In this document: positions 9,193 through 24,721 of the stretch, piece after piece | How positions within the stretch are numbered: position 1 is the first letter of the stretch | Layout: each line of letters begins with the position of its first letter | Assembly: GCA_018433015.1 (NCBI GenBank) | Contig: JAHDSB010000082.1 | Coordinates: 1-49,664, forward strand | Length of the DNA: 49,664 nt | Origin: Clostridia bacterium | GTDB taxonomy: Bacteria > Bacillota > Peptococcia > DRI-13 > SV3-B141 | Direction of reading: 5' to 3' | The notes under the pieces: generated by a model | Databases searched by the model: none | What the model was told of the DNA's origin: nothing | Seen by the model: only the letters and a program-made list of their open reading frames with translations | Program-made: the position numbers and the translations under genes

Positions 9193-9465
9193 AGTTGGCA
9201 ACTCCTAATCATTTTTTCTCACATTCCTATGTTAACAAGAATGGTGTTTTGTATCAATACACTAAACGGTTTTACTGAAAATATTTTCCTTTTTATTTAT
9301 AGGGAAGAAGAGAGAACCGTGTAGTACATACACCAAAGTTTTTGCTGTGAATAAACTAACTTACGAAATGAGGGTGTTATAAAACAAGGTAGCGGTCAGT
9401 AACTGGAGGTGGGTTAAAACTTGCTGCCGCTCCAACGTCGATGTTTCGTGAGGAGGGAAAGTTTA

Positions 9466-10464
9466 ATGAAAAAGATTAGTTTGCTTATCATATTTGTTAT
9501 GCTCATGAGTCTTGTGGCAGTAAGTACAGTAGGTTGTGGGGAGCAAGAGTTAACAAAAGTACGTCTAAATGAAGTTACCCATTCAATATTTTATGCGCCT
9601 ATGTATGCCGCTTTAAATTTGGGTTTCTTTGAACAAGAAGGTTTAGAGGTAGAATTGACCAACGGAGCAGGGGCCGACAAAGTTATGACGGCAGTATTAG
9701 CCGATCAGGCAGATATAGGTTTTATGGGACCGGAAGCATCAATTTATGTATTTAATGAAGGTAAAGAAGATTATGTAATTAACTTTGCCCAATTAACCCA
9801 AAGAGATGGATCTTTCTTAGTAGCCCGTGAGCCTGACCCGGAATTTACTTGGGAAAAATTAAGAGGTAAAACAATTATTGGCGGGAGAAAAGGCGGAGTA
9901 CCTGAAATGACCTTAGAATATGTTCTCAAAGAAAAAGGTCTGGAACCCGGTAAGGATGTAACAGTTTTAACAAATATCCAATTTGCTTTGATGGCGGGAG
10001 CTTTTACCGGTGGTACCGGTGACTATGTTACCTTATTTGAACCTGTAGCTGCTGCCTTAGAACAAGAAAGTAAAGGATATGTGGTAGCATCGGTAGGAAA
10101 AGAAGGTGGAGAAATACCTTATACAGCTTTTTGCGCTAAGAAGAGTTACATAGAAGAAAACCCAGAGATAATTGAAAAATTTACAAAAGCTGTAGCTTTA
10201 GGACAAAAATGGGTTGCAACCCATAGCCCTCAAGAGATAGCTGAAGTACTTAAACCATCTTTCCCGGATAGTGATTTAGAAATACTAGCTAAAGTAGTGG
10301 AAAGATATAATGAACAAGATACCTGGTGTACCACACCTTATTTTAAAAAGGCAGGTTTTGAGCGGCTGCAGGATGTTATTGAGGAAGCGGGTCAATTAAC
10401 TAAACGTGCACCTTTTGAAAAGCTGGTAACCAACGAATTTGCTGAAAAAGTTGTGATCGAATAG
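9466..10464 (+). CDS. ABC transporter substrate-binding lipoprotein, SsuA/THI5 (NMT1) type
   Basis: 332 residues from ATG 9466, with AGGAGGG upstream; the longer frame from 9421 has no ribosome site. A lipoprotein signal peptide ends at Cys24 (VSTVGC). The mature part has the SsuA/NMT1-like pattern FYAPMYAALNLGFFEQEGL, QADIGFMGPEASI and WEKLRGKTIIGG. Relatives bind nitrate, sulfonates, taurine or pyrimidine precursors of thiamine. The ligand cannot be chosen from sequence, and no biosynthetic gene nearby points to one. It forms an operon with the ATPase and permease downstream. Confidence 0.9.
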   Translation: MKKISLLIIFVMLMSLVAVSTVGCGEQELTKVRLNEVTHSIFYAPMYAALNLGFFEQEGLEVELTNGAGADKVMTAVLADQADIGFMGPEASIYVFNEGKEDYVINFAQLTQRDGSFLVAREPDPEFTWEKLRGKTIIGGRKGGVPEMTLEYVLKEKGLEPGKDVTVLTNIQFALMAGAFTGGTGDYVTLFEPVAAALEQESKGYVVASVGKEGGEIPYTAFCAKKSYIEENPEIIEKFTKAVALGQKWVATHSPQEIAEVLKPSFPDSDLEILAKVVERYNEQDTWCTTPYFKKAGFERLQDVIEEAGQLTKRAPFEKLVTNEFAEKVVIE

Positions 10465-10489
10465 AAGGCATAACAAAAGGAGGGGGGGT

Positions 10490-11263
10490 ATGGTGGAACT
10501 CAGCAATATCGTAGAAGTAAAGAATATTTCCGTTAATTACCATACTTTAACAGGAGAAACCGTTGCTATCAAAGATCTATCTTTAGTAGTTGTAAAAGGA
10601 GAATTTGTGAGTATTATAGGACCAAGTGGCTGTGGGAAGTCAACCCTTTTATCGGTGCTAGGTGGGTTAGTGCAGCCATCAAAAGGAGAAGTTTTCATTA
10701 AAGGTGAATCAGTAAAGGGAACTAACCCTATAGTTGGTTATATGCCCCAAAGGGATCAGTTATTTCCTTGGCGAAATATTCTACAAAATGTTCTCTTGGG
10801 TTTAGAAGTGCAAAAAAAACTAACGAAAGAAACCCGCCAAAAGGCCATAGAGTTATTAGAAAAATACGGTTTAGGGGAATTCCTTCACTATTATCCTTAT
10901 CAACTATCGGGAGGCATGCGCCAGAGAGTGGCTTTGATTCGCACCTTAGCCATAGATCCGGAAATATTGCTTTTGGATGAACCTTTTTCTGCTTTGGATT
11001 ATCAGACCAGGTTAGCCGTATCCGATGAGGTCAGAACAATTATCTACAATGAAAATAAAACCAGTATCCTTGTTACCCATGACATTGCGGAAGGAATTTC
11101 CATGTCTGATAGAATAGCTGTTTTGACTAGTAGACCTGCAGAAATAAAGAATATTCATGATATAAAGCTGAGCTGTGAGGAAATTTCTCCTATCAAAAAG
11201 CGGGAAGCTCCTGAGTTCCGACATTATTTTAATCGCATATGGAAGGAGCTGGATATTAAATGA
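10490..11263 (+). CDS. ABC transporter ATPase (nitrate/sulfonate/THI5 type)
   Basis: 257-residue cytoplasmic ATPase with Walker A GPSGCGKST, Q-loop MPQRDQLFPW, signature LSGGMRQRVAL, Walker B ILLLDEPFSALD and the switch histidine in LVTHD. The MPQRDQLFPWRNI stretch is typical of SsuB/TauB-like ATPases. AGGAGGGGGG precedes the start. Its stop overlaps the permease start (ATGAG), showing translational coupling. It powers import of the unidentified ligand of the upstream lipoprotein. Confidence 0.94.
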   Translation: MVELSNIVEVKNISVNYHTLTGETVAIKDLSLVVVKGEFVSIIGPSGCGKSTLLSVLGGLVQPSKGEVFIKGESVKGTNPIVGYMPQRDQLFPWRNILQNVLLGLEVQKKLTKETRQKAIELLEKYGLGEFLHYYPYQLSGGMRQRVALIRTLAIDPEILLLDEPFSALDYQTRLAVSDEVRTIIYNENKTSILVTHDIAEGISMSDRIAVLTSRPAEIKNIHDIKLSCEEISPIKKREAPEFRHYFNRIWKELDIK

Positions 11264-12069
11264 GGGAGAAAGTTCAAGCTGTTTCCCAGGAACATCAACT
11301 TTATTTAAATAAAGTCAAACAGGAAAGCATCAGAGTACTAGCAACCAGGGTAGCAATTTTATTAATATTTGTTGTAGGATGGGAATTTATGGGGCGTACC
11401 GGTATCATCGACCCGTTCATTACCAGCCAGCCCTCACGTATTTGGCATACACTAGTTAATCTCTATGCAGAAGGGGTTCTGTTTAAACATATAGGCTATA
11501 CACTTTTGGAAACAGTATTAGGTTTTATTTCCGGCACCATGCTAGGAACCTTTATGGCAATTGTATTATGGTGGTCTCCCTTTATTTCCAGAGTATTAGA
11601 TCCCTATTTGGTGGTATTAAATGCCTTACCTAAAATTGCCCTAGGTCCTATCCTGATAGTGTGGATAGGTAATGGACCCCCGGCTATAATTACTATGGCT
11701 CTATTAGTATCTCTTATTGTGACAATTATCACTGTTTACACAGGATTTAGTCAGGTAGATATGGATAAGATTAGACTATTACAAAGTTTTGGAGCTACCA
11801 AGTGGCAGATTTTAAGATTAGTTATTTTACCTGCCAGTATTCCTACCATAATTTCCGCTTTAAAAATAAATGTAGGCTTGGCCTGGGTAGGTGTAATTGT
11901 TGGAGAATTTCTCGTATCACGAGCAGGACTGGGTTATCTTATTGTATACGGAGGTCAGGTGTTCAGACTCGATTTAGTAATGGCCAGTGTTATAGTTCTA
12001 GCTATCTTAGCTGCCATTATGTATCAAGGAGTTCTTTATTTGGAAAAACATATTGCCAAGTGGCAGTAG
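11260..12069 (+). CDS. ABC transporter permease (SsuC/TauC-like)
   Basis: 269 residues with about six membrane helices and the binding-protein-dependent transport signature near residues 165-200 (LLQSFGATKWQILRLVILPA, with the EAA-like G-A-x3-W-x3 pattern). It overlaps the ATPase gene by 4 nt. The order of binding protein, ATPase and permease is a complete importer; the substrate is unknown. A terminator follows 17 nt after the stop. Confidence 0.94.
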   Translation: MREKVQAVSQEHQLYLNKVKQESIRVLATRVAILLIFVVGWEFMGRTGIIDPFITSQPSRIWHTLVNLYAEGVLFKHIGYTLLETVLGFISGTMLGTFMAIVLWWSPFISRVLDPYLVVLNALPKIALGPILIVWIGNGPPAIITMALLVSLIVTIITVYTGFSQVDMDKIRLLQSFGATKWQILRLVILPASIPTIISALKINVGLAWVGVIVGEFLVSRAGLGYLIVYGGQVFRLDLVMASVIVLAILAAIMYQGVLYLEKHIAKWQ

Positions 12070-12111: not shown

Positions 12112-12445
12112 GTGCACAAACTGCCCGGGAACGTTGCCTTGTAATGTAGAAAAATAGCAAAAATGCTCAAAAAATAGGAAAATATGAAGGAAATATATGT
12201 TAATTTTAGTCTAGGAAAATACAGTTAGATGTTGTAGTATATAAAGTGTAGACTAGTTTAAAATATTTAGAAAAAACAAAAGATAATTTAAAATTCGCAA
12301 AAATAGATAGAATATCTTCCCCAGATAGGTATAGAATTTAATATGATAACTCATCAAGTTTCTTCCTAACTCTGAAGACGGAAAATTATGAAACAGTATT
12401 TTGAATAAATGATTACCCTCAAAGTTGCTTAAAGAAGGTGATCAA
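12112..12445. other. AT-rich spacer without a recognisable gene
   Basis: About 330 nt of A/T-rich sequence between the importer terminator and plsY. I see only very short ORFs, no convincing ribosome site other than that of plsY (AAGAAGGTGAT, 12432-12442), and no clear promoter pair. Confidence 0.5.
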
Positions 12446-13045
12446 ATGCTAAACTATGTTATTTTCTTAAGTGCGTCATATTTAATCGGGTCCCTCTCTC
12501 CGTCCTATTTAATTTGTAAATATTACTATGCTGTAGATATACGCTGTTATGGTAGCAATAATCCCGGAAGCACAAATGTATTAAGAGTTGTCGGCCCTAA
12601 AGCTGCCTTAGTTGTGTTTTTATTGGATCTATTAAAAGGATTAATAGTTGTGGCCCTGGCTAAACTTTGGGGTGGAAACATTCTCCCTTTATTGTGTGGT
12701 ATAGCAGTTGTTATAGGGCATAATTGGTCCATATTTCTTAAATTTAAAGGTGGGAAAGGTATAGCCACAAGTCTTGGTGTTATTCTTGGTGTCGCCCCGG
12801 CCATCACCCCCTTTGTTTTTTTGGTTGGTATAGCAATGATATTTTTATTTCGTTATGTGTCGCTGGGGTCTATTACTGCAGCAATTTCTTTACCAGTATT
12901 GCTTTACTTATTTGATTATTCTGGGGAATATTTACTTTTTGGGCTAGCGCTAACGGGAATGTCACTTTATCGTCATAGAACAAATATCAAAAGATTACTA
13001 AAAGGAACAGAAAGTAAAATAGGTCAAAAAGCGAAGTACCAGTAA
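12446..13045 (+). CDS. plsY: glycerol-3-phosphate acyltransferase PlsY
   Basis: Integral membrane enzyme that transfers the acyl group of acyl phosphate to glycerol 3-phosphate, the first step of phospholipid synthesis. Motif 1 is CYGSNNPGSTNVLR, motif 2 GHNWSIFLKFKGGKGIATS; about five membrane helices; 199 residues. ATG 12446 follows AAGAAGGTGAT; the TTG at 12425 lies ahead of the ribosome site. It precedes the sigma-54 promoter of the glycerol operon, so it is not part of that transcript. A DegV fatty-acid-binding protein 3 kb away belongs to the same acyl-phosphate route. Confidence 0.93.
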   Translation: MLNYVIFLSASYLIGSLSPSYLICKYYYAVDIRCYGSNNPGSTNVLRVVGPKAALVVFLLDLLKGLIVVALAKLWGGNILPLLCGIAVVIGHNWSIFLKFKGGKGIATSLGVILGVAPAITPFVFLVGIAMIFLFRYVSLGSITAAISLPVLLYLFDYSGEYLLFGLALTGMSLYRHRTNIKRLLKGTESKIGQKAKYQ

Positions 13046-13146
13046 ACATTGATAGAAATTACCAAGAAAAACTTAGTGGGCAAGGGGATTGGGTAAATAT
13101 TACCAAGGTCGATGGAAGGAAAGCTATTAATATATGGATTAGCTAT

Positions 13147-13162
13147 TGGCATGATTTTTGCT
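13147..13162 (+). promoter_or_regulatory. sigma-54 (-24/-12) promoter of the glycerol operon
   Basis: TGGCATGATTTTTGCT matches the consensus TGGCACG-N4-TTGCW with one mismatch and has exactly 10 nt between the invariant GG and GC. Transcription would start near 13174, ahead of the glpP ribosome site. A sigma-54 activator is encoded further along the same operon. Confidence 0.8.
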
Positions 13163-13196
13163 AATAATATTTAGCAAATGACAGGGAGTGATTTAG

Positions 13197-13787
13197 TTGG
13201 GGGGAGTTTTACAGGACCTTAAAAAGTATCCTGTTATAGCAGCAATTCGCGATCTTGAAAAAGTTGATCTGGCTTTAGAACATACTATTCAATGTATTTT
13301 TCTACTGACGGGAACCATATGTGATGTTAAATATGTGGTAAAGCACATTAAAAGAGCAGGTAAGAGAGCCTTTATACATATTGATTTATTAGAGGGTGTT
13401 AGTAAAGACAGCATGGGTATTAGATACGTCTCTCAAGAAATAAAACCTGATGGGATAATAACTACCAGAGGTAACTTAGTTAGTAGTGCTAAAAGTGAAG
13501 GGATTTTTACTATTCAAAGGGTGTTTATATTAGATAGCTTAGCTAAAGATAGTGCAGATAAATCTATTAAACAGGTTGATCCCGATGCAGTGGAAGTATT
13601 ACCGGGAGCCATACCTAAAATAATAAGAAAAATACATAATGATGTTAGAAAACCCCTAATTGCCGGGGGACTTATAGAAAATATGAATGAAGTGCAAGCG
13701 GCTATAAATGCAGGAGCCTTAGCTGTGTCCGTTAGCAATGAAAAATTATGGGAACTGAATAACATGGAAAAGAGGGCTTGGAGATGA
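13197..13787 (+). CDS. glpP: GlpP-type glycerol-3-phosphate-responsive antiterminator
   Basis: 196-residue TIM-barrel-like RNA-binding protein. Family motifs include PVIAAIRDLEKVDLAL, FIHIDLLEGV, PDGIITTRGNLV, QRVFILDS and PLIAGGLIE near the phosphate site. In Bacillus subtilis, GlpP bound to glycerol 3-phosphate allows RNA polymerase through leader terminators of glp genes. A TTG start at 13197 fits GGGAGTG upstream and the usual length. It is the first gene after the sigma-54 promoter, and a GlpP-type leader overlaps its stop codon. A second leader follows glpK. Confidence 0.92.
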   Translation: MGGVLQDLKKYPVIAAIRDLEKVDLALEHTIQCIFLLTGTICDVKYVVKHIKRAGKRAFIHIDLLEGVSKDSMGIRYVSQEIKPDGIITTRGNLVSSAKSEGIFTIQRVFILDSLAKDSADKSIKQVDPDAVEVLPGAIPKIIRKIHNDVRKPLIAGGLIENMNEVQAAINAGALAVSVSNEKLWELNNMEKRAWR

Positions 13788-13840
13788 GGAGAAGGTCCTC
13801 CCATGGTGATAGTTTATCTATTGCCGTGGGAGGATTTTTG
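13781..13840 (+). promoter_or_regulatory. GlpP-type antiterminator leader 1
   Basis: The box GAGATGAGGAGAA (13781-13793) is followed at once by a terminator hairpin (TCCTCCCATGG, 13796-13806, with CCGTGGGAGGA, 13824-13834) and TTTTT. The same box with one change precedes another terminator at 16319. The element overlaps the glpP stop codon. It is inferred to stop transcription after glpP unless GlpP plus glycerol 3-phosphate is bound. Confidence 0.8.
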
Positions 13841-13962
13841 AATTCAATAAATTCTAGTGGGGTTAAAAAATTTTGCCGATAAAGTTCTGGGAAGGAGGTG
13901 ATTATCAAAAGGTTTTATAATGCTTTGGGACTAATAAGAAAAATATGCATGGAGGTGAAATC

Positions 13963-14343
13963 ATGAAACAGTTAGGCTCAATTATTGGTTATGCAATAGC
14001 GGGTATTTTTGTAATGTGCGTGTGGGGTGTTTTCGCAAACAAATATGGAATTGGTGGCGGATGGTTTGCAGGATTTTGTATAATTTCTATTAATTGGTTT
14101 ATCAATCACTATATTGGTATTATTGATAACCAAGGTGCGACTGTGGATATGGCCCTAGGCATTGGTATTGCCGGAACAATGCGGGATGTATTTGTTATTG
14201 GTGGTCAGGCAGGTGTGGAATCTCTCCCAACTTTAGTAGTAGTATGTATTGGTGGTGCTTTAGGAGGTTTAACTGCTGCTGCTTTAACAAAATATTTGAA
14301 TGAAAAGAAAGTTGCCGAAGCTTCCAAAGATGTAGCGGCTTAA
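13963..14343 (+). CDS. small membrane protein, Lin0368-type putative glycerol transporter subunit (first copy)
   Basis: 126 residues with about four hydrophobic segments. ATG 13963 follows GGAGGTG; the in-frame ATG at 13945 is upstream of that site. It aligns along its length with the next gene: GGGWFAGFCIISINWFINHY, GIIDNQGA and DMALGIGIAG here, against AGGWLAAGF, NHGVGLIYQSGPA and DMAWAAGIGI there. I recall a Lin0368 family annotated as putative glycerol transporter subunits, found beside dha and glp genes. No MIP-type NPA motifs are present. The place between glpP and glpK argues for glycerol uptake; no activity is proved. Confidence 0.75.
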   Translation: MKQLGSIIGYAIAGIFVMCVWGVFANKYGIGGGWFAGFCIISINWFINHYIGIIDNQGATVDMALGIGIAGTMRDVFVIGGQAGVESLPTLVVVCIGGALGGLTAAALTKYLNEKKVAEASKDVAA

Positions 14344-14371
14344 GACATAGTTTGAAAGGAGGTATGTGTTT

Positions 14372-14725
14372 ATGACAGCTCAAATGATTATTGGGACCCT
14401 TGCTGGAGCGTTTATATTTCCATTCTTTATTTGTATGGCGTGGGGTAGACTAGTTGACGACTTTGGCCCTGCAGGCGGTTGGTTAGCTGCTGGTTTTATA
14501 GTAGGTACATGTTGGGCACTTAATCATGGTGTTGGTCTAATTTACCAATCCGGACCAGCATGGATTGATATGGCCTGGGCTGCAGGCATTGGTATTTTAG
14601 TTAATGGATTAGTATCAGGGGCTAATTTTGGAAAAACTTTTCCCAGCATTATAAATGCGATATTAGGCGGTATTTTAGGTGGATTCATCCTAGCCTGTTT
14701 ATTTACTTACAATCCTCCCTGGTAA
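14372..14725 (+). CDS. small membrane protein, Lin0368-type putative glycerol transporter subunit (second copy)
   Basis: 117 residues, about four hydrophobic segments, paralogous to the preceding gene (shared GGW near residue 35, NH in the second helix region, DMAWAAGIGI, and a C-terminal GGxLGG helix). ATG 14372 lies 8 nt after AAAGGAGGT; the GTG at 14366 is too close. Two unequal small subunits encoded in tandem suggest a heteromeric membrane complex. It is followed 60 nt later by glpK, so imported glycerol would be trapped at once by phosphorylation. Confidence 0.75.
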   Translation: MTAQMIIGTLAGAFIFPFFICMAWGRLVDDFGPAGGWLAAGFIVGTCWALNHGVGLIYQSGPAWIDMAWAAGIGILVNGLVSGANFGKTFPSIINAILGGILGGFILACLFTYNPPW

Positions 14726-14782
14726 GAAAATACACTGAAAATAAAGAGTATTGAGATTTTTAAATAAAAAAGGGAGGTATAG

Positions 14783-16279
<1,497 letters not shown>

Positions 16280-16318
16280 TAATCAACCTATAAGTAAATA
16301 TAGTTTCAAGTTGTGGTG

Positions 16319-16372
16319 GAGACGAGGAGAACCACACCTTTAGAAAACAAAGGTGTGGTTCTGTTTTTTTTT
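16319..16372 (+). promoter_or_regulatory. GlpP-type antiterminator leader 2
   Basis: The box GAGACGAGGAGAA (16319-16331) differs by one base from that at 13781. It runs straight into a perfect 12-bp terminator stem (AACCACACCTTT, 16330-16341, with AAAGGTGTGGTT, 16349-16360) and a long T tract. It sits between glpK and the glycerol-3-phosphate oxidation genes, so it should let GlpP control the distal operon separately. Confidence 0.82.
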
Positions 16373-16410
16373 AGCCAAGTCCTATCAGCCTGGAAGAAGG
16401 GAGGAAAATA

Positions 16411-17853
16411 ATGGATGATGTCATTATTATTGGAGGCGGCGTTGTAGGTTGTATGATTGCCAGGGAATTATCTAAATATAATTTAGCTATTACTCTTGTA
16501 GAGAAGAATGAAGATGTAGCCTGTGGGACTAGTAAAGCCAATAGTGCAGTTATTCATGCGGGATTTGATGCTAAACCGGGAACTCTGAAAGCCAAATTAA
16601 ATGTTAGAGGCAATACATTCTTTCCGGCCTTGTGTGAAGAATTAGACGTGCCTTTTAAAAATAACGGTTCTCTTGTCTTAGCTTTTGATGATGAAGAGAT
16701 AAATACTGTGGGCGAACTAATGGAGAGAGGTAAAACTAATGGTGTGCCGGGCTTAGATTATTGGGATACTGACAAGATTTTGGAAGTTGAGCCTTATCTC
16801 AAGAAAACAGTGCGTAGAGCTCTTTATGCTCCTACTGCCGGTATTATTTGTCCTTATGAGTTTACTATTGCTTTAGCAGAAAATTCTTATCAAAATGGAG
16901 TGAAATACTTGTTTGAGGCCCCGGTAACCGGGGTGGAGAAGATCACGGATGAGAACTTAGTGGTTAGAACAAGTAAGGGTGATTTACAAGGAAAGTATGT
17001 CATAAATGCGGCAGGCTTATTTGCCGATGAAATATCTAAGTTAGCAGGTGCGGAAGAATATCAAATAATCCCTCGAAAAGGCGAGTATTTGATATTTGAT
17101 AAGGAGTATGGTTATTTAGCCCAGATGGTGTTATTCCCTACCCCCTCTAAAATATCTAAAGGTATTCTTGTTTGTCCCACAGTAGACGGTAATGTTTTTA
17201 TAGGGCCTAATTCCAATAACATTGATGATAAGACGGATGTTAGTGTACAGAGAGAAGGAATAGAAGAAATAATTAGTGGTGGGAAAAAAATAGTGCCCGA
17301 TTTACCCTTGAAAAATATTATTACATCATTTGCCGGTTTACGGGCTTCTTCAACTAAGGGTGACTTTATTATTGAGGCATCTCAGAAGGTAAAAGGCTTT
17401 ATTAATGTGGGAGGAATAGAATCTCCCGGTTTTACTTCATCACCGGCTATAGCAGAAATGATAGTAGAAATTTTGATAAATGAAGGTCTTAAATTAGAAA
17501 AGAAAAATAATTTTATACCCCACAGGCCAAGAAAATACAGATTTAGAGAAATGGATAATGAGGCCAGGGAAAAGTTAATAAAACAAAATCCTGATTTTGG
17601 TCATGTGATTTGTCGATGTGAAACTGTAACAAAAGGTGAGATAGTAGATGCTATCAGAAGGCCCTTAGGCGCTAGAAGTATTGATGGAATTAAAAGAAGA
17701 ACGCGGGCAGGCATGGGCAGATGCCAGGGCGGATTTTGTTCACCCAAAGTGTTAGCTATTTTGGCAGAAGAGTTGAAAGTTAAGCCAACTGTAATAAGAA
17801 AGGCTAACGGAGGTTCGGAAGTCCTTTTAGGAAAAATAAAGGAATATCTTTAG
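16411..17853 (+). CDS. FAD-dependent glycerol-3-phosphate dehydrogenase with BFD-type Fe-S domain
   Basis: 480 residues. The N-terminus is an FAD-binding DAAO/GlpA-like fold (IIGGGVVGCMIARELSKY, VEKNEDVACGTSKANSAVIH). The C-terminus is a BFD-like Fe-S domain with Cys401 and Cys403 (CRCETV) and Cys438 and Cys443 (CQGGFC). Together with the next two genes it forms a module common in Firmicutes next to glycerol kinases, and in this operon oxidation of glycerol 3-phosphate to dihydroxyacetone phosphate is the obvious reaction. Unlike the aerobic GlpD enzyme, it probably hands electrons to Fe-S and flavin partners. L-2-hydroxyglutarate oxidase relatives share the N-domain, so the substrate is inferred from context. 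Confidence 0.85.
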   Translation: MDDVIIIGGGVVGCMIARELSKYNLAITLVEKNEDVACGTSKANSAVIHAGFDAKPGTLKAKLNVRGNTFFPALCEELDVPFKNNGSLVLAFDDEEINTVGELMERGKTNGVPGLDYWDTDKILEVEPYLKKTVRRALYAPTAGIICPYEFTIALAENSYQNGVKYLFEAPVTGVEKITDENLVVRTSKGDLQGKYVINAAGLFADEISKLAGAEEYQIIPRKGEYLIFDKEYGYLAQMVLFPTPSKISKGILVCPTVDGNVFIGPNSNNIDDKTDVSVQREGIEEIISGGKKIVPDLPLKNIITSFAGLRASSTKGDFIIEASQKVKGFINVGGIESPGFTSSPAIAEMIVEILINEGLKLEKKNNFIPHRPRKYRFREMDNEAREKLIKQNPDFGHVICRCETVTKGEIVDAIRRPLGARSIDGIKRRTRAGMGRCQGGFCSPKVLAILAEELKVKPTVIRKANGGSEVLLGKIKEYL

Positions 17854-17868
17854 TGGGGGGGTGAAAAT

Positions 17869-19146
17869 ATGATTTACAAGGAGCTAGTTGTCATTGGAGG
17901 AGGACCGGCCGGCCTTTCGGCAGCGATTCAAGCCTATGAAGAAGGTGTCCAAGATATCTTATTAATTGAAAGAGATTTTGAACTGGGAGGCATTCTCAAG
18001 CAGTGTATTCATAATGGTTTTGGGTTACACATTTTCCAAGAGGAATTGACAGGCCCTGAATATGCGGAAAGATTTATTAAGGAACTAAAGAAAATGAATA
18101 TTGAGGTAATTCTTGACACTATGGTGTTGGAGATAACTAATGAAAAGAAAATTATTGCAGTGAATAAAGAGTTAGGGATCTTAAATATTCAAACCCAAGC
18201 TATTATTTTGGCCATGGGCTGCAGGGAGAGGACAAGAGGTGCTTTAAATATTCCTGGTTTCCGGCCTGCAGGGATTTTTACGGCAGGGACAGCACAGAGA
18301 TTTGTAAATATAGAAGGTTATATGCCGGGTAAAGACATAGTTATTTTAGGATCCGGAGATATAGGCTTGATAATGGCTAGACGCTTTACTTTAGAAGGGG
18401 CTAAGGTACGTTGTGTTGTAGAATTGATGCCTTATTCTAATGGGTTAACGAGAAATGTAGTTCAGTGTTTAGAGGATTATGACATACCCCTATATTTAAG
18501 ACATACCGTTATAGAAATACATGGTAAGGATAGATTAGAAGGCGTTACTGTTGCTGAAGTTGACGATAATAATCTCCCTATTTTAGCTACTGCTACTTAT
18601 ATCCCTTGCGATACTTTACTTTTATCTGTAGGTTTAATTCCCGAAAATGAGCTCTCCAAACTGGCTGAGGTTAAGCTTGATGATAGAACGGGTGGCCCTA
18701 TAGTAAATCAAAGAATGGAAACATCCACCCAGGGGATATTTGCTTGTGGAAATGTTTTGCATGTTCATGATTTAGTAGATTTTGTCACTCAAGAAGCACG
18801 ACTAGCAGGGAAAGGAGCTGCAGATTATTTAAGTAAGGGGAAAGTAGACAATTATGCCGATGCTATACCGGTTCGTGTTCTAAAAGGTGTGAGATATATT
18901 GTGCCCCAGTATTTCCAAGGCAAGGAAATGCTAAATGGTAGACAAGAACTGTTTATGCGTAGTGTAAAACCAATGGATAAGGCCAAGCTCATAATAGATT
19001 CTGATAAGGGAGTAATTAAGACCAAAACTTTGAACTATGTTAAACCTAGTGAGATGATCAATGTGGCCCTTCAAAAAGAGGAGCTTTGTCAGGCCAATCC
19101 TAATTATCTGGAGATATCTCTACAAGAAGTGGGTGATAGGTCATGA
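17869..19146 (+). CDS. NAD(P)/FAD-dependent oxidoreductase partner of the glycerol-3-phosphate dehydrogenase
   Basis: 425 residues, pyridine-nucleotide-disulfide-oxidoreductase fold. Two dinucleotide-binding motifs are visible: VVIGGGPAGLSAAIQAYEEG near the N-terminus and IVILGSGDIGLIMARRFTLEG in the middle, plus ATG-like and GD-like motifs (MGCRERTRG, GIFACGNVLHVHD). A GGGGGGGTG ribosome site lies upstream, and its stop overlaps the next start (ATGA). It is inferred to pass electrons between the flavoprotein/BFD subunit and NAD(P) or another carrier. It may correspond to a GlpB-like role by position, though the sequence type differs. Confidence 0.85.
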   Translation: MIYKELVVIGGGPAGLSAAIQAYEEGVQDILLIERDFELGGILKQCIHNGFGLHIFQEELTGPEYAERFIKELKKMNIEVILDTMVLEITNEKKIIAVNKELGILNIQTQAIILAMGCRERTRGALNIPGFRPAGIFTAGTAQRFVNIEGYMPGKDIVILGSGDIGLIMARRFTLEGAKVRCVVELMPYSNGLTRNVVQCLEDYDIPLYLRHTVIEIHGKDRLEGVTVAEVDDNNLPILATATYIPCDTLLLSVGLIPENELSKLAEVKLDDRTGGPIVNQRMETSTQGIFACGNVLHVHDLVDFVTQEARLAGKGAADYLSKGKVDNYADAIPVRVLKGVRYIVPQYFQGKEMLNGRQELFMRSVKPMDKAKLIIDSDKGVIKTKTLNYVKPSEMINVALQKEELCQANPNYLEISLQEVGDRS

Positions 19147-19514
19147 CAGAAGAAAAGTTTGTAACCTGTATAGTCTGCCCTAAAGGCTGTAGGATTAAAG
19201 TTATATTAGATGAGGGAGATATATTAGATATCTTAAATTATGGTTGTAAGAGAGGGGTAGAATACGCCCGGGAAGAAGTAATGGCGCCTAAAAGAATTTT
19301 AACAACCACCGTTGCCGTGCAAGGACAAAATATACAAATGTTGCCAGTGAAAACAGAAGATGCTATACCGAAAGAGCTTTTAAAAGTAGCTATGCATGAA
19401 ACGAAAGATTTATCTGTAGAACCGCCCATAAAGATCGGTGATGTCATCTGGCCTAATATTGCAGGCACTGGAGTTAATATAATTGCAACTCGTACACTGG
19501 ATGCTAATGTTTAA
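19143..19514 (+). CDS. DUF1667 cysteine-motif protein of the glycerol-3-phosphate oxidation module
   Basis: 123 residues. The N-terminal Cys9, Cys12 and Cys16 (CIVCPKGC), with Cys34 in YGCKRG, suggest an Fe-S or zinc site. The C-terminal part is a small beta-rich domain (PVKTEDAIPKELL). DUF1667 proteins almost always accompany the two preceding oxidoreductases, and the 4-nt overlap here shows coupling. The biochemical role is not established; electron-transfer subunit is the simplest idea. Confidence 0.88.
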   Translation: MTEEKFVTCIVCPKGCRIKVILDEGDILDILNYGCKRGVEYAREEVMAPKRILTTTVAVQGQNIQMLPVKTEDAIPKELLKVAMHETKDLSVEPPIKIGDVIWPNIAGTGVNIIATRTLDANV

Positions 19515-19538
19515 TTATTTAGATAAGAGGTGGGGGCC

Positions 19539-20846
19539 TTGGTACAAAAAATAATAGCAAAAACTATAGATGACTTGGAAAATACCTGGGGTAACCTCTC
19601 CATTCGTAATAATTTTGGGAGAACAGTATTTTCTACCGATTATCTAGCAAATATCCTTGGTAAAGAACATTGGCAAAATAATGAAAAACAGGATATAATT
19701 GATATAGTGAATAAACTTAGCTTTTATGAGGCCGTAGTTATTATAGGTTTTGACAAAATGGATTTGATAGGCAGGAGAATAAACGAAATAATCCCTGACA
19801 TTGAAAAAGAAGCTACACAAATATTCAGAACTAGGAATACTGGATTTGAGGTTAAGAAAGATGATAACCAGTATAGTCAGGCGAGACTATTAGATGAAGC
19901 TTTTGAGGATCTGATTGGTGATAGCTATAATTTTAGAAATGCGTTGATGGTTGCAGCAAAAGCCGCAGAAACAAAATCTACTGTCCTTATTAGAGGCGAA
20001 AGTGGTACAGGTAAGGAATTAGTTGCTAAAGCTATACATATGGCCAGCAAAAGAAAAAATAAGCCCTTTATAAGTATAAATTGTCCTGCCATACCGGAAA
20101 ATTTAATGGAAAGTGAACTCTTTGGGCATGAAAAAGGGTCCTTTACAGGGGCTATTTATCAAAAAATTGGTAAAATTGAATTAGCTCATGAAGGAACCAT
20201 CCTCTTAGATGAAATAGGGGATTTAGACAAAAACATGCAGGCTAAAATTTTACGCTTTCTGCAAGAAAAAGAATTTGAAAGGGTGGGTGGGACCCAGACC
20301 ATAAAAGTCGATGTCAGAATTATTGCTGCCACCAATAGGAATCTTGAAGAATTAGTGCAAAAAGGAGAATTTAGAGAGGATCTATATTATCGCTTAAATG
20401 TGGTACCAATAAACCTCCCCGGTTTACGGGAAAGAAAACAAGATATACCGGAGCTTGTACAACATTTCGTAAAAAAACTAGGCCTGGAAACAGGCAAACA
20501 TAAGAAAGGGGTTTCTAGTGAAGCTCTACAATCCTTAATTAGGTATGAGTGGCCGGGAAATATTAGAGAGCTAGAAAATGTGATTGAAAGAGCAATCAAT
20601 CTTTCTGAACACGATATTATAGGTATTCATGATATTCCCAGCAATATCACGGGGAAAAAGAGGAAAGCTCAATCCTTAATTAATTTAAAGGAAGATGGAA
20701 GTTTAGCTTCTTTTGATGAATACGATAAAGAGATTATTAGGCAAGCTTTAGAAAAACATAAGAGCTTTAATGGTGCTGGGAAAGCCTTGGGGATAACCCA
20801 TAAGACAGTAGCAGCTAAAGCAAGAAAGTTTGGACTAATCCCCTGA
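19539..20846 (+). CDS. sigma-54-dependent transcriptional activator of the glycerol operon
   Basis: 435 residues from TTG 19539, which lies 9 nt after AGAGGTG; a GTG at 19530 overlaps that site. An N-terminal region of about 130 residues shows no receiver domain and no family I recognise. The AAA+ domain has Walker A GESGTGKE (about residue 153), sigma-54 contact loop GSFTGA, Walker B TILLDEIGD and the arginine-finger region FREDLYYRLNV. A Fis-type HTH closes the protein (GAGKALGITHKTVAAKARKF). GSFTGA replaces the usual GAFTGA. It lies inside the operon that has the sigma-54 promoter at 13147, so positive autoregulation is likely; the effector is unknown. Confidence 0.92.
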   Translation: MVQKIIAKTIDDLENTWGNLSIRNNFGRTVFSTDYLANILGKEHWQNNEKQDIIDIVNKLSFYEAVVIIGFDKMDLIGRRINEIIPDIEKEATQIFRTRNTGFEVKKDDNQYSQARLLDEAFEDLIGDSYNFRNALMVAAKAAETKSTVLIRGESGTGKELVAKAIHMASKRKNKPFISINCPAIPENLMESELFGHEKGSFTGAIYQKIGKIELAHEGTILLDEIGDLDKNMQAKILRFLQEKEFERVGGTQTIKVDVRIIAATNRNLEELVQKGEFREDLYYRLNVVPINLPGLRERKQDIPELVQHFVKKLGLETGKHKKGVSSEALQSLIRYEWPGNIRELENVIERAINLSEHDIIGIHDIPSNITGKKRKAQSLINLKEDGSLASFDEYDKEIIRQALEKHKSFNGAGKALGITHKTVAAKARKFGLIP

Positions 20847-20880
20847 GAAATTTCCTAATAATATTATAGGAGGGATTTAG

Positions 20881-21879
20881 GTGAAAAAACTGATTAATAA
20901 CCCTGATTTTGTTGTGGAGGAAATGTTGGCAGGATTTGAAGCAGCTTACCCGGAGTATATTCGCAAGCTGCCTTTTCACAATGTGGTAGTTAGAAAAGCT
21001 GCCCCAACCAAGGGAAAAGTTGCTTTAGTCAGTGGAGGAGGTAGTGGACACGAACCTTCCCATGGTGGTTTTGTTGGGAAGGGTATGCTTGATGCGGCCG
21101 TTGCGGGGGCAGTATTTACTTCACCCACCCCAGATCAAATACTCGAAGCTATTAAAGAGGTAGGGACAGAAGAAGGGGTCCTACTAGTTATTAAGAATTA
21201 TACGGGCGATGTGATGAATTTTGAGATGGCGGGAGAAATGGCCCAATTAGAAAATATTAAAGTAGCTAGCGTAGTTATAAATGATGATGTGGCTGTAGAG
21301 GATAGTACTTGGACTACTGGTAGAAGAGGAATAGCCGGTACCGTCTTTGTACATAAGATAGCCGGAGCTAAGGCAGAAGCAGGAGGAACCTTAGAAGAAG
21401 TTAAAGAAGTAGCAGAAAAAGTTATCGCTAATACCAGAAGCATGGGAATGGCTCTAACACCATGCATAGTACCGGCAGCAGGAAAGCCTACATTTACTTT
21501 GGATGAAAATGAAATGGAAATTGGAATGGGAATCCATGGTGAACCCGGTACCCATAGAGATGCTATCAAAACTGCTGATGAAATAACGGAACATTTGCTA
21601 TCTAAAGTATTAGCTGATATGTCTTTAGCTGACGGGGAAGAGGTAGCAGTTATGGTTAATGGATTGGGATCAACCCCCTTAATGGAGCTATTTATTGTTA
21701 ATAGAAAAGTGAAAGAGATCCTTACAGAAAAAGGTATCAACATATATAAAACTTTTGTGGGTGAATATATGACTTCTTTAGAAATGGCAGGTTGTTCAAT
21801 TACACTACTGAAACTTAATGCAGAATTAAAAGAGCTGTTAGATGCACCTGCAGATACACCGGCTTTTAAAATCATTTAA
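20881..21879 (+). CDS. dhaK: dihydroxyacetone kinase subunit DhaK
   Basis: Binds dihydroxyacetone covalently as a hemiaminal on a histidine; His219 in GMGIHGEPGTHR is the expected residue (His218 in E. coli). Other motifs are KVALVSGGGSGHEPSHGGFVG and NYTGDVMNFEMA. 332 residues, GTG start 6 nt after AGGAGGG. It starts 34 nt after the sigma-54 activator and heads the dhaKLM set. The phosphate comes from DhaL-ADP, recharged by DhaM, so dihydroxyacetone is converted to its phosphate at the cost of PEP. Confidence 0.97.
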   Translation: MKKLINNPDFVVEEMLAGFEAAYPEYIRKLPFHNVVVRKAAPTKGKVALVSGGGSGHEPSHGGFVGKGMLDAAVAGAVFTSPTPDQILEAIKEVGTEEGVLLVIKNYTGDVMNFEMAGEMAQLENIKVASVVINDDVAVEDSTWTTGRRGIAGTVFVHKIAGAKAEAGGTLEEVKEVAEKVIANTRSMGMALTPCIVPAAGKPTFTLDENEMEIGMGIHGEPGTHRDAIKTADEITEHLLSKVLADMSLADGEEVAVMVNGLGSTPLMELFIVNRKVKEILTEKGINIYKTFVGEYMTSLEMAGCSITLLKLNAELKELLDAPADTPAFKII

Positions 21880-21895
21880 TAAAGGGGATTAGAAT

Positions 21896-22561
21896 ATGTT
21901 ATCAGCGTCAGATGTAATTTATGTTTTAGAAAAAATGGGTACTGTTATCGCGGAAAATAAAGAATATTTGACTGAGCTTGATTCCGCTATTGGTGATGCT
22001 GACCACGGGATAAATATGACCAAGGGATTTGACGCGGTAAAGAGCAAGCTGGAGGATATTAAACAAAAAAATATTGATAATATAGGGGAAATTTTAAAAA
22101 TTACAGGTATGACTCTAGTATCTACAGTAGGAGGAGCTGCAGGGCCCCTTTATGGTACAGCTTTTATGAAAGCTGCCTTAGCAGTAATGGGTAAAACAGA
22201 AGTGGATATTAGGGACTTTCAGAATATCATGGAGGGTGCTCTTGCTGGTGTGAAAATGCGGGGAAAGGCAGAAATAAGTGATAAGACGATGGTTGATGCC
22301 TTAGAACCGGCAGTTAATATCTTACGGGAATCAAAGGATAAAGAGCTTAATGAAATAGAGCTTTTAAATAATGTTCGGCTTGCTGCTTTACAGGGTATGG
22401 AATACACGAAAGGTATTCAGGCTCGTAAAGGAAGGGCCAGTTATTTGGGAGCTAGAAGTATTGGACATCAAGATCCGGGGGCAACCTCCAGTTATCTTTT
22501 ACTAAATACTATTTACCAAACTGTTGAAGAAATAAAAGGGAAAGATATAAATGGAGGTTAA
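21896..22561 (+). CDS. dhaL: dihydroxyacetone kinase subunit DhaL (ADP-binding)
   Basis: 221 residues. The Mg-ADP site is visible as LDSAIGDADHGINMTKGF, with the GDADHG aspartates, followed by GGAAGPLYGT and the C-terminal GRASYLGARSIGHQDPGATS. In PTS-type DhaKLM the ADP stays bound, is phosphorylated by DhaM and gives its phosphate to dihydroxyacetone on DhaK. The ribosome site is modest (AAAGGGG). It lies between dhaK and dhaM with short gaps of 16 and 2 nt. Confidence 0.97.
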   Translation: MLSASDVIYVLEKMGTVIAENKEYLTELDSAIGDADHGINMTKGFDAVKSKLEDIKQKNIDNIGEILKITGMTLVSTVGGAAGPLYGTAFMKAALAVMGKTEVDIRDFQNIMEGALAGVKMRGKAEISDKTMVDALEPAVNILRESKDKELNEIELLNNVRLAALQGMEYTKGIQARKGRASYLGARSIGHQDPGATSSYLLLNTIYQTVEEIKGKDINGG

Positions 22562-22563
22562 AA

Positions 22564-22956
22564 ATGGTTGGTTTAGTTGTTGTATCTCACAGTCCTAAAA
22601 TTGTGGAAGGAATTAAAGATTTGGCTTTGCAGATGATCCCTGAAGAAATTCCCCTAGCTCTTTCCGGAGGTACAAGTGACGGACGGTTAGGAACGGATTT
22701 TCAAAGGATTTTAACAGCCATTAATCAAGTATATTCCGAAGATGGTGTTTTGATTTTGTATGATCTAGGCAGTGCTTTAATGAGTGCAGAAATGGCAAAA
22801 GAAAGTTTACCTCCGGAAAAACAACAAAATATTTCCATACTAAAGGTTCCTATCGTAGAAGGGGCTGTTACTGCGGCAGTTGAAATTAGCTTAGGTAAAG
22901 ACATGAATTCTATTATAAATGCTTTCAAGGAAGCAGGCCTGGAAAAGAGCTTTTAA
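22564..22956 (+). CDS. dhaM: PTS-dependent dihydroxyacetone kinase phosphotransferase DhaM
   Basis: 130 residues, only the EIIA-mannose-like domain. His9 in GLVVVSHS is the phosphorylated residue. Other conserved parts are LSGGTSDGRLGTDF and LYDLGSALMSAE. The E. coli protein also carries HPr-like and EI-like domains; this short form, usual in Firmicutes, takes phosphate from general HPr. GGAGG lies just before the ATG and overlaps the end of dhaL. Confidence 0.96.
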   Translation: MVGLVVVSHSPKIVEGIKDLALQMIPEEIPLALSGGTSDGRLGTDFQRILTAINQVYSEDGVLILYDLGSALMSAEMAKESLPPEKQQNISILKVPIVEGAVTAAVEISLGKDMNSIINAFKEAGLEKSF

Positions 22957-22969
22957 ATAAGGTGAGATA

Positions 22970-24721
22970 ATGCGTAAAACAAAAATAATTTGTACAATCG
23001 GCCCAGCCAGTGAAAAAGTAGAGACTTTAAAAGAGTTGCTCATGTCCGGGATGAATGTAGCCCGCTTGAACATGTCTCACGGCAGTCATGAGGAACATCA
23101 GAAGCGTATATATAACATAAGGAAGGCATCAGCTGAAACAGGAATTCCAGTAGCTATTATGGTAGATACCAAAGGTCCCGAGATTAGAATAGGGCTAATT
23201 GACAAAGAAAAAATATCTTTAAAAAGACATGAAGAGCTTACCCTTACTACGCAAGAGATAATAGGAACAAAAGGGCGTATTCCCGTTAATTATCAAAATT
23301 TAGCATGTGATTTAGAAGCCGGTGATCAGATCCTTTTAGATGATGGCCTGATTTCTCTACTAGTTAAGAAGATAGAAGATACAGAAATTTTATGTCTAGT
23401 GGAAAATGAGGGGGATTTAAAAAGCAGGAAAAAAGTAAATGTACCGGGAAAGATTTTGAATTTACCGGCGTTAACATCCCAGGATATTGCTGATATCACC
23501 TTTGCAGTTAAAGAGGAGGTAGACTTCATTGCAGCTTCTTTCATTCGCGCTGCTGCTGATGTATTAGGGATACGCAAGGTTTTAGAAGATTTAAAATCGG
23601 AGATTAGTATAATTTCTAAAATAGAAAATTACCACGGTATAATAAATCTACAAGAAATAATTAAAGTATCTGAGGGGATCATGGTAGCCCGCGGAGATTT
23701 GGGAGTAGAGATACCTGCGGAAGATGTCCCCTTAGTACAAAAAGAACTTATTGAAGCTTGCAACTTAGCAGGCAAACCTGTTATAACAGCAACCCAAATG
23801 CTGGAATCCATGATCAGAAACCCACGTCCTACAAGGGCTGAGGCCAGTGATGTAGCCAATGCCATTATCGATGGTAGTGATGCCATCATGCTATCGGGCG
23901 AAACAGCTATCGGCAATTACCCCGTAAAAGCAGTAAAGACAATGGCCACAATAGCTATGCGTACTGAAGAAAATATAAACTGGGAACAAATTATTAAAAA
24001 AAGAGTGTCCCATGCTGCTATATCTACCACAGAAGCAATTAGTTCCGCTACTTGTGACGCAGCCTATAGCCTAGGAGCAGCTGCCATTATCACAGCTACT
24101 GAATCGGGGTCTACGGCCAGACTTGTTTCTAAGTATAGGCCCCATACACCCATAATTGCAGTTACTCCCAAAGCCTCTGTTTTTCGACAACTTTTGTTAG
24201 TTTGGGGTATTATACCTTTGATTTCATCTCCCAGTGAAAGTACGGATGAGTTGTTAGAGATGTCCATTAGTACAGTACTGGAAGCAGGTTTTATTAAGGA
24301 TGGCGATCTAGTAGTTATTACAGCCGGCGTGCCTTTAGGTGTACCGGGAACTACTAATTTAATTAAGATTCATACGGTAGGAAAGGTTTTAGCCAAGGGT
24401 ACGGGGGTAGGATGTAAATCTGTTTCAGGCCGAGTAGTTATTACTAATAAAGGAGAAGAAGCAGTGGCCCGCCTAAAAAAAGGTGATATCCTTGTTACCA
24501 CTTCTGTCGATCATAGTTTTATACCTGCCTTAAAAAAAGTGGGGGCTTTAATTACAGAAGTAGGAGGGCTTACCTCTGAGGGGGCTGTGATAGGAATAAA
24601 TTTGGGTATCCCTGTCGTTGTAGGGGTAGAACATGCGCTTATGAAGCTTAAAGAAGTTCATTCCGTAACAGTAGATCCTGTAAGGGGTTTAATTTATAAT
24701 GGTTATACAAAAGCATTGTAA
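22970..24721 (+). CDS. pyk: pyruvate kinase with C-terminal PEP-utilising-type domain
   Basis: 583 residues: catalytic pyruvate kinase (TKIICTIGPASEKVETLKEL, MVDTKGPEIR, substrate-region MVARGDLGVEIP, TATQMLESMI) plus an extra C-terminal domain of about 110 residues (GVGCKSVSGRVVIT, GALITEVGGLTSEGA). The Bacillus-type extension resembles the mobile domain of PEP-utilising enzymes. It begins 13 nt after dhaM and ends the operon before a strong terminator. In this place it would turn PEP made from dihydroxyacetone phosphate into ATP and pyruvate, and would compete with DhaM for PEP. Confidence 0.96.
   Translation: MRKTKIICTIGPASEKVETLKELLMSGMNVARLNMSHGSHEEHQKRIYNIRKASAETGIPVAIMVDTKGPEIRIGLIDKEKISLKRHEELTLTTQEIIGTKGRIPVNYQNLACDLEAGDQILLDDGLISLLVKKIEDTEILCLVENEGDLKSRKKVNVPGKILNLPALTSQDIADITFAVKEEVDFIAASFIRAAADVLGIRKVLEDLKSEISIISKIENYHGIINLQEIIKVSEGIMVARGDLGVEIPAEDVPLVQKELIEACNLAGKPVITATQMLESMIRNPRPTRAEASDVANAIIDGSDAIMLSGETAIGNYPVKAVKTMATIAMRTEENINWEQIIKKRVSHAAISTTEAISSATCDAAYSLGAAAIITATESGSTARLVSKYRPHTPIIAVTPKASVFRQLLLVWGIIPLISSPSESTDELLEMSISTVLEAGFIKDGDLVVITAGVPLGVPGTTNLIKIHTVGKVLAKGTGVGCKSVSGRVVITNKGEEAVARLKKGDILVTTSVDHSFIPALKKVGALITEVGGLTSEGAVIGINLGIPVVVGVEHALMKLKEVHSVTVDPVRGLIYNGYTKAL

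Follow-up and report, generated by a model that had tools for sequence, protein, structure and literature searches.

Directly ahead of glpK, we found two small adjacent genes, A and B, which probably encode the two subunits of one permease for glycerol, or a similar small polyol, that replaces GlpF in this operon of the window (the whole 49,664-nucleotide stretch of DNA analyzed here). We put the probability of this reading, which draws on sequence and gene context, at roughly three in four. Both proteins fall in DUF6905, a family whose function has so far been putative. The constant pairing of the genes, their exchange with glpF at one operon position, and their opposite charge bias together make a two-part glycerol or polyol permease the most likely explanation. 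Glycerol uptake by bacteria is generally taken to mean GlpF. If our reading is true, the pair is a second, unrelated solution to uptake that has changed places with glpF several times. Proteins now annotated as "hypothetical" in Listeria, Enterococcus, and many anaerobic Firmicutes would then receive a corrected name, and a minimal transporter (~120 aa per chain) would be at hand in which to study the way antiparallel subunits conduct a neutral solute.

A and B are paralogous members of DUF6905

ORF A (positions 13963 to 14343, + strand) encodes 126 aa from an ATG that follows GGAGGT; a longer reading frame with a start at 13945 is possible. ORF B (14372 to 14725, + strand) encodes 117 aa from an ATG, or 119 aa from an alternative GTG start at 14366. 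The genes are 28 bases apart, and each has a ribosome-binding site ahead of it. Both proteins matched Pfam PF21846 (DUF6905), with 109.9 bits for A and 125.1 bits for B against a gathering score of 27, and they covered the profile almost end to end (positions 2 to 105 and 1 to 105, respectively, of 106). At an E value of ≤1, DUF6905 was the only Pfam family matched by either protein. Judged by sequence, A and B are members of DUF6905 and not of the MIP, CrcB, or SMR family.

The original prediction described A and B as tandem paralogs of 126 and 117 residues that share GGW, NH, and DMA-GIGI motifs and lack the NPA motifs of aquaglyceroporins. Our results agree. The two profiles aligned in hhalign with a probability of 99.6% at 30% identity, the GGW, NH, and DMA..GIGI motifs are common to both chains, the NPA motif is absent from both, and neither chain matched the MIP profile (PF00230). 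The residues that never vary in the 38 chains of 19 pairs (A/B numbering) are W21/24, GG32-33/35-36, W45/48, H49/52, D62/66, G71/74, G97/99, and G102/104, and the Asn of the NH motif is kept in 36 chains.

No NCBIfam model was specific to either protein, and a PDB sequence search with A gave no match. A scan of viral contigs with both profiles found no relatives, and a contig scan found one, Clostridiaceae bacterium M8S5, whose operon has the identical order. The name given in the original prediction, a "Lin0368 family putative glycerol transporter subunit," did not turn up in the NCBIfam release or in the literature searched, and the Listeria homologs are annotated "hypothetical protein." In that literature, mostly outside subscription journals, we found no paper on DUF6905 function and no description of its topology or of its exchange with glpF.

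The pair lies in a glycerol operon behind a candidate GlpP antitermination site

The gene order around the pair is plsY, glpP, A, B, glpK, glpO type, NOX type, DUF1667, sigma-54 activator, dhaK, dhaL, and dhaM. The first gene (12425 to 13045, + strand), a conserved neighbor, encodes a plsY-type glycerol-3-phosphate acyltransferase (PF02660, 182.7 bits). It is followed by glpP (13197 to 13787, + strand; PF04309, 219.9 bits), for a glycerol-3-phosphate-responsive antiterminator, which in most relatives precedes either the pair or MIP. The glycerol kinase gene glpK (14786 to 16279, + strand; TIGR01311, 776.8 bits against a cut-off of 590) starts 60 bases beyond B. Downstream of it, and conserved there in relatives, is a glycerol-3-phosphate dehydrogenase-like (glpO) FAD-dependent oxidoreductase with DAO and BFD [2Fe-2S] domains (16411 to 17853, + strand; PF01266 and PF04324). 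Next come an NAD(P)/FAD oxidoreductase of the NOX type (17869 to 19146, + strand; PF07992), which is also a conserved neighbor, and a DUF1667 protein (19143 to 19514, + strand; PF07892). The stretch at 20881 to 22956 (+ strand) we take from its sequence to be dhaK, dhaL, and dhaM, for PEP-dependent dihydroxyacetone kinase; this gene set is conserved in relatives and occurs in the pair operons of Listeria and Enterococcus. Between DUF1667 and dhaK, inside the operon, lies the gene for the sigma-54 activator (19530 to 20846). It is kept in most relatives and suggests a second layer of control over dhaKLM.

GlpP antitermination is established for Bacillus glp genes. In the window, the leader between glpP and A (13774 to 13840, + strand) contains the motif GGRCTnGGAGAnnnGGAGAA at 13774 to 13798, and the 3' part of this motif runs into the 5' arm of an intrinsic terminator hairpin (~13793 to 13840, followed by a T run; −36.5 kcal/mol, z = −6.8). 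The motif was present in 12 of 12 aligned leaders, 9 ahead of pairs and 3 ahead of MIP genes. Rfam held no family for the leader and returned a chance miRNA match alone. A motif that overlaps a terminator downstream of glpP fits GlpP antitermination, and this leader is probably a GlpP-controlled site.

The pair and MIP genes exchange in the slot before glpK

A glpF gene elsewhere in the same genome had been named as a case against the original prediction. We found none in the source genome (3.75 Mb, 99.3% complete, 197 contigs), searching for MIP at an E value of ≤10. In a sample of 398 genomes of the phylum, DUF6905 occurred above the profile cut-off in 14, every time as an adjacent pair. Two lone subthreshold matches (G150 and G294) were disregarded because they fall in long unrelated frames. 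The pair was not mostly away from glycerol genes, the other case named against the prediction: it is immediately upstream of glpK in 11 of the 14 carriers, and it lies within dhaMKL operons in Listeria and Enterococcus. The predicted co-occurrence with glpK was borne out in 14/14 carriers versus 193/398 genomes (P = 3e-5), and MIP was found in 0/11 genomes with a glpK-adjacent pair versus 66/182 other genomes with glpK (P = 0.017); because the sampled genomes are related, these Fisher tests overstate independence.

In the other 3 carriers, MIP lies ahead of glpK and the pair is elsewhere. We therefore rejected a general exclusion of MIP by DUF6905 (3/14 carriers have MIP; P = 0.39). Exclusion holds for the slot beside glpK and not for the whole family. 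Thus, the claim that the pair replaces GlpF stands for the glpK-adjacent pairs and fails as a statement about DUF6905 as a whole.

Of the 22 genomes of one order, 12 had the pair beside glpK and no MIP, 3 had MIP in the glpK operon, and pair and MIP were never found together in the glpK slot. The operon of genome G176 is the same gene for gene as those of G298 and G201, save that MIP stands in place of A and B. A GlpK tree of 37 operons, picked for the two labels (pair or MIP), called for at least five changes between pair and MIP (5 to 6 over bootstraps). These exchanges in otherwise identical operons support the claim that the pair stands where glpF is expected.

Two other occupants of the slot were considered and rejected as glycerol transporters, a P-type ATPase (G129 and G258) and an alpha/beta hydrolase farther upstream (G095). 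In G081, the gene directly before glpK (locus L093, 629 to 1495) encodes 288 aa that match no Pfam family; its product is a possible third occupant.

Other gene contexts of DUF6905 pairs

We found the arrangement dhaM-[A-B]-dhaK-dhaL in Listeria innocua, L. monocytogenes, and Enterococcus gilvus, where the pair is labeled hypothetical in all three. The records are filed as plasmids, and the operon matches the Listeria gol/dhaK2L2M2 operon (lmo0344 to lmo0351), in which the pair (lmo0350/lmo0349) sits between dhaM2 and dhaK2. In L. monocytogenes, expression of lmo0349 and lmo0350 changes together with that of dhaKLM in the cold (PMC5491136). Like the window, the Listeria operon joins an A-B pair to a glycerol/dihydroxyacetone pathway. 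The two differ in that the Listeria pathway oxidizes first, with a dehydrogenase followed by DhaKLM, whereas the window has glpK, and in that a DeoR/GlpR-family regulator adjoins the Listeria operon in place of GlpP.

A second branch of pairs accompanies FGGY kinases of the xylulokinase type (G250 C4 and G407 C45). On G407 C45 (L056, 7624 to 13338), an aldehyde dehydrogenase, A and B, the FGGY kinase, and homologs of dhaK and dhaL (53% and 41%) stand in a row; this row resembles an uncharacterized polyol pathway. The pairs of G341 and G403 adjoin DeoC-type aldolases, an SDR, and an FGGY kinase, and the DeoC part is seen in G381 as far as the contig end. The SDR of the G341 and G403 operons is closest to the GolD/DthD subfamily, under its cut-off. 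On G384 C15 (L047, 8340 to 9046), no polyol kinase is close to the pair, whose neighbors are a GH3 glycosidase, a GNAT protein, and an unassigned 233-aa protein; this pair possibly has a different substrate.

The dhaK2L2M2 contexts in Listeria and Enterococcus, together with the FGGY kinase, SDR, and DeoC contexts, suggest that DUF6905 is probably a family of small-polyol permeases with a glycerol branch that includes the window's member. The FGGY and DeoC operons and the one pair without a recognized polyol gene imply that the substrate of the family is not strictly glycerol. The glycerol label of the original prediction thus suits the window's member and is too narrow beside the xylulokinase-like kinases and DeoC aldolases.

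These contexts also favor the rival reading that A and B carry another small polyol or a triose (dihydroxyacetone, a tetritol, or a deoxy-pentitol), with glycerol at most one substrate. The Listeria and Enterococcus pairs adjoin not just dhaKLM but also fsa, tkt, and rpiB, and an SDR and an FGGY kinase are found beside the DeoC pairs wherever the sequence reaches far enough. We nevertheless consider this reading unlikely for the window, where the partner is a true GlpK and where glpF holds the same slot in sister operons. Glycerol would fit the Listeria operon too, if its first enzyme is, as we assume, the glycerol dehydrogenase GolD.

A and B have opposite charge biases

We scored charge bias as Arg plus Lys in the termini and loop 2 minus those in loops 1 and 3. 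Over 16 pairs, with four transmembrane (TM) segments assumed and their limits placed by eye, the bias was 0 to +3 for A and −1 to −5 for B; the window's pair scored +3 and −2. The zero values, with the N-terminal amine uncounted, came from three A proteins of other branches. The pairs of Listeria (+7/−2) and Enterococcus (+7/−3) gave the same signs. Adjacent paralogs with opposite Arg/Lys bias, the pattern that marks antiparallel paired small transporters, are thus found here. The opposite loop bias of A and B is new here. By analogy with those transporters, it should be the signature of an antiparallel heterodimer of fixed topology.

A and B formed two clades (99/97) with matching inner order, and the distances within A correlated with those within B (r = 0.95). 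This is what is expected of obligate partners. It appears improbable that A and B each act alone or as parallel homo-oligomers and that the duplication is a dosage effect. The same invariant residues are kept in both chains, as such a reading would have it, but no singletons were found above the cut-off in the phylum sample, and one old A/B split is kept in all lineages together with the opposite charge bias.

Structure models were built from just 4 sequences and are weak. The AlphaFold2 model of B had helices at residues 3 to 31, 33 to 53, 63 to 82, and 86 to 113 with low confidence (pLDDT, 68.2), and the model of A was poor (pLDDT, 53.6). Searches with a low-confidence single-chain model gave a best Foldseek E value of 0.41 and a best VIA Z score of 8.5, the latter to a designed helical bundle. 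The matches (photosystem PsaL, FtsX, and designed bundles) were within chance for helical bundles and were rejected.

Comparison with known systems

We found neither an adjacent pair nor MIP in 116 of the 193 genomes with glpK. Thus, glpK requires neither, and uptake by diffusion or by other proteins must be possible. This leaves some room for a nontransporting role in which the pair forms an accessory membrane complex, such as one that scaffolds or regulates GlpK/DhaK or the glycerol-3-phosphate oxidase. We regard such a role as quite improbable. An accessory complex should co-occur with glpF, and repeated exchange with glpF would be unexpected of it. In addition, where glpF is present in G341 and G381, the pair lies outside the glpK operon, and the pair also accompanies unrelated kinases.

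GlpF and other MIP proteins share with the window's pair the operon slot, the leader, and the partner GlpK. They differ in architecture: a single MIP chain is built of two inverted 3-TM repeats, whereas A and B have 4 predicted TM segments in each of two genes. Twin Fluc proteins are adjacent paralogs with converse Arg/Lys bias, and activity requires the two together (PMC3755343). A and B resemble these small 4-TM CrcB/Fluc paralogs in their arrangement and bias and differ from them in sequence, motifs, and gene context. Paired SMR proteins such as MdtIJ are encoded by pairs of ~100-aa 4-TM genes and form obligate antiparallel heterodimers, with opposite bias in over 95% of adjacent pairs (PMC9574504). 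A and B are likewise a small 4-TM gene pair with opposite bias. SMR proteins transport cations or drugs by means of a glutamate in TM1; unlike them, A and B have an invariant His and Asp at TM2/TM3. By analogy, then, A and B would follow the design of a paired small transporter and fill the role of GlpF.

It is very improbable that the pair is a divergent form of a known four-helix channel (CrcB/Fluc or SMR) or a split aquaglyceroporin, since, despite the shared size, four helices, paired genes, and opposite bias, DUF6905 was the sole Pfam match above chance, with no match to CrcB (PF02537) and none to SMR (PF00893; E ≤ 1 for A, B, and 16 B members), hhalign gave 0.4% against CrcB of the same genomes and 2.1% and 1.1% against MIP, NPA is missing, and Foldseek found nothing under an E value of 0.4 with the low-confidence model.

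Proposed mechanism

In the two-part permease that we favor, A would insert with both termini inside (N-in/C-in) and B with both outside (N-out/C-out), and the two would assemble as an antiparallel pseudo-twofold heterodimer or as an oligomer of such dimers. The invariant His at the end of TM2 and Asp at the start of TM3 would then lie near the cytoplasmic face in A and near the outer face in B. Together these sets may form a polar path that binds the hydroxyls of glycerol. Incoming glycerol would be trapped by GlpK; in operons of the Listeria type, it would instead be oxidized by an SDR dehydrogenase and then phosphorylated by DhaKLM. GlpP would sense glycerol-3-phosphate and let transcription pass the leader.

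Transport by facilitated diffusion would be the simpler case, and proton coupling through the His and Asp residues is possible. More tentatively, and with the odds against it, DUF6905 may be an unrecognized class of antiparallel polyol permeases, unrelated to aquaglyceroporins, in which one His-Asp site per face couples glycerol uptake to protons. If so, the pair could concentrate glycerol, where GlpF can merely equilibrate it.

Probable horizontal acquisition of the operon

The genome of the window is the only carrier of the pair among 25 in its order, and its GlpK is 89.5% identical to those of G341 and G381, genomes outside its class. This suggests that the glp-dha operon (12425 to 24721) was probably acquired horizontally. 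Upstream of it, positions 9421 to 12069 encode an ordinary set of an NMT1/THI5-type binding protein, an ABC ATPase, and a permease. In G250, which has two intact pairs, we also observed a broken third DUF6905 pair with an in-frame TAA (L041, contig C10, ~60605 to 61093).
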